A stretch of 46,966 nucleotides of DNA, from contig VGZJ01000010.1 in NCBI GenBank assembly GCA_016872595.1, positions 1 through 46,966 of the forward strand. Direction: 5' to 3'. The notes under the pieces are model-generated. The model ran no database searches, was not told the origin of the DNA, and worked only from the letters and a program-made list of their open reading frames with translations. This DNA comes from Planctomycetota bacterium (GTDB lineage Bacteria; Planctomycetota; Planctomycetia; Gemmatales; Gemmataceae). Each line of letters starts with the position of its first letter. Position 1 is the first letter of the stretch. Made by a program: the position numbers and the translations under genes. Positions 4,463-5,320 of the stretch are shown piece by piece.

Positions 4463-5320
4463 ATGGCAGCCGAGCGCGCCCTTGCGATTGTCGTGCGCGG
4501 GAGCGACTGGAGCGAGACCAGCCGCATCGCGACGCTGTTCACGCGCGAGTTCGGCAAGGTGCGCGCGCTCGCGAAGGGCGGTCGCCGGCTCAAGTCGAAC
4601 TTCGACATCGCCTTCGACTTGCTCACCGTCTGCCAAATCCTGTTCCTGCGGAAGTCGCACGGCGGTCTCGACCTGCTGACCGAGGCGCGGCTCGAAGAGC
4701 AGTTCCCGGTGCTGCGGCGGAACCTGCCGGCCTTGTACGCGGGGTACTACGTCGCCGAACTGCTGGCCGACGGCACGCAGGACTACGACCCGCACCCGGA
4801 GTTGTTCGACGCGGCGCTGGGCGTGCTGCGCGCGCTGGGGGCGGAAGAACTTAACCCCCTCAGCCCCCCTTCCCTGAAGCGAAGGGGGGAGGAAGAGCCT
4901 GCGCGCGCCGTCGATGTCGCTGGCGCGCCATTGCATTTCTCCCCCTCCCTTCAGGGAGGGGGCTGGGGGGTGGGTTCTTGGGGATTGGTGTCGGCGTTTG
5001 AGCTTGTTTGGCTCCATGAGCTGGGCTATAGCCCGCGGCTCGATGCGTGTGCCGGGTGCGGCGTGGAGCGGCGGAACCCAACCGCGGCGGCGCTGTATAG
5101 CCCGTCGGCGGGCGGCGTGCTGTGCCCGGGGTGCGGGCCGACCGTGCCCGACCGTCGCGGCGCGAGCGGGCCGGCGCTGGCCGCGCTGCGGGCGCTGGCC
5201 GCCGGGGGCGCGGACCTGCCCGCGGAGGCCCGCACCGAGGTGCGCCAGTTACTCGGGCAGACGGTGAGCTGTGTGCTCGGTCGCCGCCCGCGCATGCTGA
5301 ACTATGTCGATGGTCGGTAA
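4463..5320 (+). CDS. recO: DNA repair protein RecO with an in-frame palindromic insertion
   Basis: RecO binds single-stranded DNA and helps RecR load RecA in the RecF pathway. The N-terminal OB fold (residues 1-80) shows [20 protein letters not shown] and [10 protein letters not shown]; the helical C-terminal part has [16 protein letters not shown] and CPGCG, a four-cysteine zinc site. The ATG at 4463 is preferred over an upstream GTG at 4421 because the family starts at [10 protein letters not shown]. At 285 residues it is longer than the usual 240-260. The extra length is explained by about 40 codons (residues 131-172) read through a palindromic element at 4853-4976, inserted between two helices; the flanking RecO sequence (ALGVLRALG / [14 protein letters not shown]) would otherwise be continuous. 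The frame is intact, so a functional protein is likely. Confidence 0.93.
4853..4976. repeat. Palindromic element inserted in frame in recO
   Basis: A left arm beginning AACCCCCTCAGCCCCC (4853) is matched, imperfectly, by the reverse complement of a right arm ending at 4976. Each arm is also a small hairpin: CCCCCTCCCT/AGGGAGGGGG at 4941-4960 is perfect, and the left arm carries a similar CCCTGAAGCGAAGGG core. About 45 bases of unrelated sequence separate the arms. The whole element is open in the recO frame and encodes a Ser/Pro/Gly-rich loop ([10 protein letters not shown] ... [11 protein letters not shown]). Boundaries are approximate. Confidence 0.8.

Follow-up and report, generated by a model that had tools for sequence, protein, structure and literature searches.

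Protein-coding palindromes are best known from Rickettsia, whose palindromic elements (RPE) are the standard example, and scattered cases are described in other bacteria (PMC2229807, PMC10969869). Di Nocera (2013) described intragenic REPs of the GTAG and CGTC kinds as single units, dimers and groups inside ORFs of several species; many of their hosts are repair genes, and most REPs are intergenic (PMC3733652). RPE and intragenic REPs are the closest described kinds to the element that we report here, a palindrome that is open in frame inside recO of a planctomycete, which the sequence comparisons support as one copy of a dispersed palindrome family of a Gemmata-like clade. As set out in the cited papers, RPE are likewise dispersed palindromes of approximately 105–150 bp that lie in frame in unrelated protein genes, have an open frame of their own and also occur as intergenic copies (PMC2229807, PMC10969869). 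In contrast, the host genomes here are of about 5–10 Mb and not those of an intracellular bacterium, and the element, compared by description, is a doublet of hairpin units, in most of which one frame is open whichever strand is read. The likeness to intragenic REPs lies in the units inside ORFs, in the DNA replication and repair genes among the hosts, and in the different REPs found at about the same recB site of two Xanthomonas species (PMC3733652). However, those REPs are mostly intergenic, whereas the palindromes here are as frequent in coding frames as randomly placed intervals of the sampled loci; the stem-end tag of GTAG REPs is not clearly recognisable, and their link to a RAYT is not seen here (PMC3733652, the main text of which contains no occurrence of Gemmata). 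REPIN/RAYT systems share the two inverted REP units, the many copies and the lineage-specific populations (PMC3116915, PMC8049555), but no RAYT was linked to the palindrome in 33 loci here and one core-rich genome has no Y1 match. Translated MITEs (ERIC and the 107-bp form of Correia) are also small inverted-repeat elements with open frames and in-frame gene fusions; Table 1 of that source marks target-site duplications for four of seven elements, with a question mark for the rest, whereas none was detected here (PMC2229807).

No report of this palindrome family in Gemmata or in planctomycetes was found among the open-licence PMC papers listed. Notable relative to the known kinds are the density in genes, the frame-transparent build and, so far, the absence of a linked transposase. 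Palindromes placed in coding frames at random-position density in genomes of about 5–10 Mb, conserved repair and tRNA-modification genes included, make it testable whether such insertions are junk that the host tolerates or a source of new stretches of protein, and they provide a resource of dozens of natural insertions, with at least four host genes having empty-site orthologues in the genus.

The window, which is the whole stretch of 46,966 nucleotides analysed (contig VGZJ01000010.1, from the genome called G000 below), encodes recO as an ORF that stays open across the whole palindromic insert and whose product of 285 residues matches both RecO_N and RecO_C in a Pfam scan, in agreement with an earlier, sequence-only reading of this DNA, which had claimed that the palindrome leaves the frame unbroken (Table 1). 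That reading had placed the element at 4853–4976; the place is right, but the extent is not, the doublet being slightly longer (about 4847–4979). Its proposal of two arms, each a hairpin, is borne out by a repeat search, which located 25-nt arms at 4866–4890 and 4938–4962 (84% complementary), an outer inverted pair at 4845–4859 and 4965–4979, and a hairpin within each arm (4864–4875/4878–4889 and 4941–4950/4953–4962). Folded as single-stranded DNA, positions 4844–4983 reach −50.1 kcal/mol against −28.8 ± 3.1 kcal/mol for 200 shuffles, none of which was as low (z −6.9). The right arm contains the exact 22-nt core CCCCCTCCCTTCAGGGAGGGGG at 4941–4962. A unit consists of a C-rich tail and a hairpin with the consensus CCCCC(C/T)TCCC TGAA GGGA(A/G)GGGG, obtained from an alignment of 77 of the 112 filtered units (126 in all). 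An Rfam scan gave sub-threshold microRNA matches only, which we take as chance.

Table 1. Features of the recO locus in the window
Feature	Position	Strand	Evidence
recO host gene	4463..5320	+	ORF; Pfam RecO_N/RecO_C; AF2 pTM 0.82
Palindromic doublet, two inverted REP-like units and spacer (RecO residues about 129–173)	4847..4979	+	inverted repeats; fold z −6.9; genome-wide copies
Left arm, REP-like unit (outer tail, then hairpin)	4847..4891	+	unit profile match L001:1500-1544; unit alignment row
Spacer, 46 nt, partly self-complementary	4892..4937	+	sequence; fold; similar spacers in other long copies by eye
Right arm, REP-like unit as in left arm, inverted	4938..4977	-	unit L001:1591-1630, minus strand; unit alignment

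In the protein, the insert is predicted to form a mostly disordered loop between two helices. AlphaFold2, run on 23 RecO sequences (alignment A2 without the rows L239, L248 and L249), gave a model with a pTM of 0.82 in which residues 133–169, most of the insert, mostly have pLDDT values below 50 and are flanked by helices 112–130 and 171–186, the interhelical position that had been suggested from the sequence. The suggested excess of about 35–45 residues over the family norm was also recovered: among 16 complete insert-free rows (alignment without the loci L070 and L072, which are too short before a stop), 15 RecO proteins have 240–252 residues, and the single one of 270 residues owes its extra length to a C-terminal extension. 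A copy inserted in the right phase, whichever its orientation, adds a segment rich in Pro and Gly (PTPPAPLPEGKGE...SPFPSGRGAGGVGS) and leaves the gene unbroken. In recO the copy seems aged, as the left arm is read in another frame (14 residues) than the standard PTPPAPLPEGKGE, and is still open.

The family is large and confined mainly to one genus. With the 132-nt recO doublet as query, blastn returned 88 matches in G000, the best of them after the query itself having 82% identity over query positions 1–123. Allowing up to three mismatches, the 22-nt core matched G000 92 times in forward and 87 times in reverse orientation, and a reversed control gave 0 matches. The core is carried by 13 of 19 genomes of the same genus, mostly at high copy, with counts from only 5 + 4 (G025) to 179 + 185; six genomes have none. 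One carrier, G010, is a single contig of 10.1 Mb with 102 + 104 matches. Another genome of the genus, G009, corresponds to Gemmata sp. IIL30, as its recO has the same coordinates in HG799464.1. Among 95 genomes of the taxonomic family, the other genera have 0–13 core matches per strand, and in a phylum-wide draw of 294 genomes the others have at most 13 per strand, these few being, among the matches listed, largely related but different palindromes. A strand bias of the core matches was considered and dropped, the pattern being nearly symmetric among the matches listed. In G000 we recognised 126 units, with 53 inverted doublets among them, and lone and tandem units exist besides doublets. The copy list of G000 rests on about 100 of the 179 core matches, merged with blastn into 63 places, with one cluster at a contig edge (L053) dropped before counting; that of G010 comprises 35 regions among the matches listed. 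The further genomic copies that the earlier reading had asked about are thus dozens in G000, approximately 60% of those examined lying in open coding frames.

These coding calls come from codon models built here and not from annotation. With a model trained on the window, a single open coding frame runs through 40 of 66 G000 clusters; for 15 the frame or the strand differs between the two sides, 10 border on non-coding sequence, and one is stop-interrupted. Three of the 40 (L156, L171 and L183) sit right where the open frame begins and possibly lie outside the gene. The same model placed only 11 of 38 G010 clusters in frame. Models retrained on the loci, with a changed rule that asked for 40 open codons to either side and a positive score, gave 39/66 for G000 and 23/38 for G010, and the recO copy of G010 was missed by this rule and so stands outside the 23. 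As a control, 2000 intervals per genome were drawn at random from the fetched loci and those overlapping the palindrome discarded, which left 1582 (G000) and 1568 (G010); 1009/1582 and 851/1568 of them lie in a coding frame, no different from the palindrome (p 0.44 and 0.51, respectively). In the sampled loci, genes are therefore neither avoided nor preferred, and the share of copies in coding frames is that of chance placement. Clusters with coding sequence on both sides of the same strand in another frame (11 in G000, 8 in G010) may be intergenic or frameshifting.

The open-frame copies lie in many unrelated predicted protein genes, and by our own reading of the scans, a Pfam domain spans the copy or is found on both sides of it in 25 of the 35 host proteins in which the copy is internal. 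Hosts in G000 include RecO, MutL, a RecD2 helicase, an Mfd-like protein, an Fpg-type glycosylase, MnmE, a PP-loop ATPase of the TilS kind, Lnt, PutA (with the copy between its two enzymes), a proton-translocating dehydrogenase subunit, an aldehyde dehydrogenase, MFS transporters, a sulfatase and PSD1 proteins. In G010, where 20 of 21 distinct proteins were scanned (L299 left out), they include RecD2, SelB, a RarA/MgsA-type ATPase and a QueG-type reductase, and the RecD2 copies of the two genomes sit in the same linker. The names mutL, recD2, mfd, fpg, mnmE, tilS, lnt, putA, selB and rarA are putative, being read from Pfam domains. Repair-like hosts number 5 of 35 (recO, mutL, recD2, mfd and fpg), a bare count without a genome-wide background and not an enrichment. 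In several G010 open frames (L277, L279, L287 and L290), the palindrome is directly adjoined by a second repeat family (PNPLTPFPKKEGGTEP...SPSP...GGVGEGL).

How such copies leave genes readable can be seen in the 48 doublets of which both AACC..GGTT ends are recognisable. Their modal length is 132 nt, or 44 codons (6/35 in G000, 9/13 in G010), and the length is a multiple of three in 39 of 48 (27/35 in G000, 12/13 in G010) and not in the other nine. The frame at offset 2 from the AACC end is open on the plus strand in 27/35 and 12/13 doublets and on the minus strand in 27/35 and 11/13, respectively; other frames are open in at most 8/35 (G000) and 4/13 (G010), and the same frame is open on both strands in 33 of the 48. 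Per-copy counts are given here instead of a consensus, as indels blur the one obtained from long copies, in which two frames seem to be open. No target-site duplication was detectable in 43 doublets: none exceeded 3 nt, and the counts equalled those of shuffled flanks, in a test that allowed up to 2 nt off the AACC/GGTT ends, such that ends further out would escape it. A stop-free, duplication-free palindrome that is a multiple of three long and has the same frame open on each strand keeps its host gene intact whichever way round it lies, provided that it enters in the right one of the three phases. Accordingly built are most of the 29 in-gene doublets, of which 27 are a multiple of three, 26 are used in the offset-2 frame, and 25 are open in that frame on both strands, with 15 lying in plus and 14 in minus orientation.

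We tentatively consider that the element may have been selected, as an element, to be harmless in genes, with several palindrome families having converged on this build and reusing the same loops. Its two-fold symmetry would keep one frame open on both strands, and the stop-free length in whole codons and the duplication-free insertion would do the rest; if true, the coding genome becomes a usable habitat for palindromes. Doublets scored outside genes bear on this in two ways. Their length is a multiple of three in 12 of 19, above the one third expected (p 0.007). On the other hand, no more than 8 of the 19 have that frame open on each strand (4/14 in G000, 4/5 in G010), and selection on the host genes may therefore explain most of the pattern. 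Some of these outside-gene doublets probably lie in genes after all, as does that of recO in G010.

For the recO insert itself, we regard it as highly probable that it is a copy of a non-autonomous, dispersed palindromic element of the Gemmata-like clade. We propose the following hypothetical course, in which (i) an enzyme would copy the element in trans, probably via hairpin recognition and duplication-free insertion; (ii) insertions that shift the frame or strike a structural core would be lost, while those in loops and interdomain linkers would persist; (iii) copying itself, or correction templated by the hairpin, would keep the arms matched. Because hairpins are present and no duplication accompanies them, a hairpin-recognising, single-strand insertion in trans would be the favoured route. 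The two arms of a doublet resemble each other more closely than they do those of other doublets (mean 0.855 versus 0.810; higher in 38 of 53 doublets, with 0 of 10,000 permutations as high), and at least 25 doublets are listed in G010, many of which share the spacer too; matched arms and shared spacers fit a copying of whole doublets. Covariation in the stems is modest: just one base pair is changed on both sides (UA 35, CG 27), the numbers of such pairs and of pair types do not exceed those of shuffles, and the covariation score is higher with partners slid by +1.

No mobilising enzyme was identified for the palindrome family. The obvious candidate is a RAYT of the Y1 family, and the doublet would then be a true REPIN or BIME mobilised by the enzyme of its own genome, as its inverted REP-like pairs, the lack of a detectable target duplication and the matches to Y1 transposases, which 16 of the 19 genomes in the genus have and of which G000 has five, would suggest. 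The surroundings of the Y1 genes make this unlikely: within about 1.5 kb (less at contig ends), the core is present at none of 33 Y1 loci (L091–L123, of 80 matches), many of which have other repeats around them. Furthermore, the core-rich, single-contig genome G010 has no Y1_Tnp match at E 0.001, and Y1 presence does not track the core (12/13 core-positive versus 4/6 core-negative genomes, p 0.22). The motif CTAC, which is GTAG on the other strand, is found in only 34 of 126 units, and there in the tail, away from the hairpin; the other tail variants are CTAAC (44), CCACC (19) and others (29). A RAYT as mobiliser is consequently not supported for this family, given the Y1 flanks without the core and G010 without Y1. 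At the G000 Y1/RAYT loci L092, L095 and probably L094, other repeats are common to both flanks.

The terminal inverted repeats, the length of mostly about 100–140 nt, the dispersal and the presence or absence at given sites would also fit a MITE whose parent was a conventional DDE insertion sequence bearing the same ends. We consider such an origin improbable in view of the 43 doublets without a target-site duplication, and of the hairpins inside each arm and the lone or tandem units, which are REP-like rather than MITE-like.

Orthologous sites were compared across the genus. Empty sites occur in some relatives for all four host genes compared (recO, mnmE, a UPF0261 gene and fpg), and we infer movement of the palindrome from its dispersal and from its presence and absence at such sites. 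The proposal of a mobile or replicating palindrome that tolerates translation thereby gains support from the dispersal, the open-frame copies and the empty recO sites in relatives. Among 17 rows at the recO site, seven have at least one recognisable arm and five are empty, so that part of the genus lacks the insert at this site, a check that the sequence-only reading had proposed. The recO of G025 (L080) contains a different, unrelated palindrome, open in frame, between the DYDPH and FELVWL codons; that of G011 has an insert without arms, that of G017 retains a right-end footprint and has its frame broken, and those of G090 and G092, from another genus, have C-rich inserts of their own. In G009 (L072), the frame that is open through the insert is shifted by one base against that of the flanking gene, with a slip at both ends.

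In a RecO tree computed without the insert columns (26 rows; L070, L072, L077 and L083 left out, G009 and G017 not in it), the eight insert-bearing rows of the genus form one clade (99/94). Because they do, the recO insertion looks old and ancestral to that clade, the arms apparently having since been rewritten or replaced in place; labelled for the core palindrome family alone, the tree requires three changes, and 280 of 500 shuffles were as low. The element would have entered recO in the ancestor of this clade and then drifted, being overwritten by a different palindrome in one species and largely deleted in another. The same clade is what would be seen if a single ancestral insertion had been kept as a useful linker, a functional extension of RecO. 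We find this very improbable, as the sequence and length of the insert, the frame of the left arm and the palindrome family itself vary by species, one species has a near-empty footprint, and the same palindrome family lies in dozens of unrelated genes.

The other host genes show the same kind of variation. In fpg, compared in 17 of the 19 genomes (G021 and G023 not included), the insert lies in the Fpg N-terminal domain between KWILIDL and LLRVHLGMTGQ. Long inserts of this look are present in five genomes, for three of which the DNA was read (G000, G011 and G014), G017 and G020 being judged from the peptide; 11 genomes have no insert, that of G014 is a different palindrome, and G022 has a shorter, unlike one. 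For the UPF0261 gene, eight of 16 rows are plainly empty and five, judged by eye, carry the core palindrome family; in G017 there is an insert in which no arms are visible, and the rows of G009 and G025 are either cut or out of frame. In MnmE, the palindrome is found in G000 alone among 15 rows, and the loop has short SGGRKPP/SGGREPP-like segments in G026 (L188), G025 (L189), G016 (L191) and G024 (L194), of which those of G024 and G025, read at the DNA level, come from another palindrome (GGGGGCGTAAGCCCCC).

Taken with the relatives that have an empty site and the many other copies, the matched arms mean that the insert is not plain low-complexity coding sequence. C/G homopolymers are error-prone, and the slipped recO insert of G009 could point to an assembly artefact, but as a general account ordinary low-complexity sequence or misassembly is hardly credible and is refuted by matched-arm palindromes in 13 genomes of the genus, one a single contig, in coding as well as non-coding places. 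The UPF0261 gene of G009 (L211/L224) also has a stop near the insert, and the slips in this genome would be either a homopolymer assembly error or a real frameshift. Finally, the C-terminal halves of the RecO proteins of L068 (G020) and L078 (G016) are nearly identical while their N-terminal halves differ, a pattern that suggests recombination or a mixed bin.
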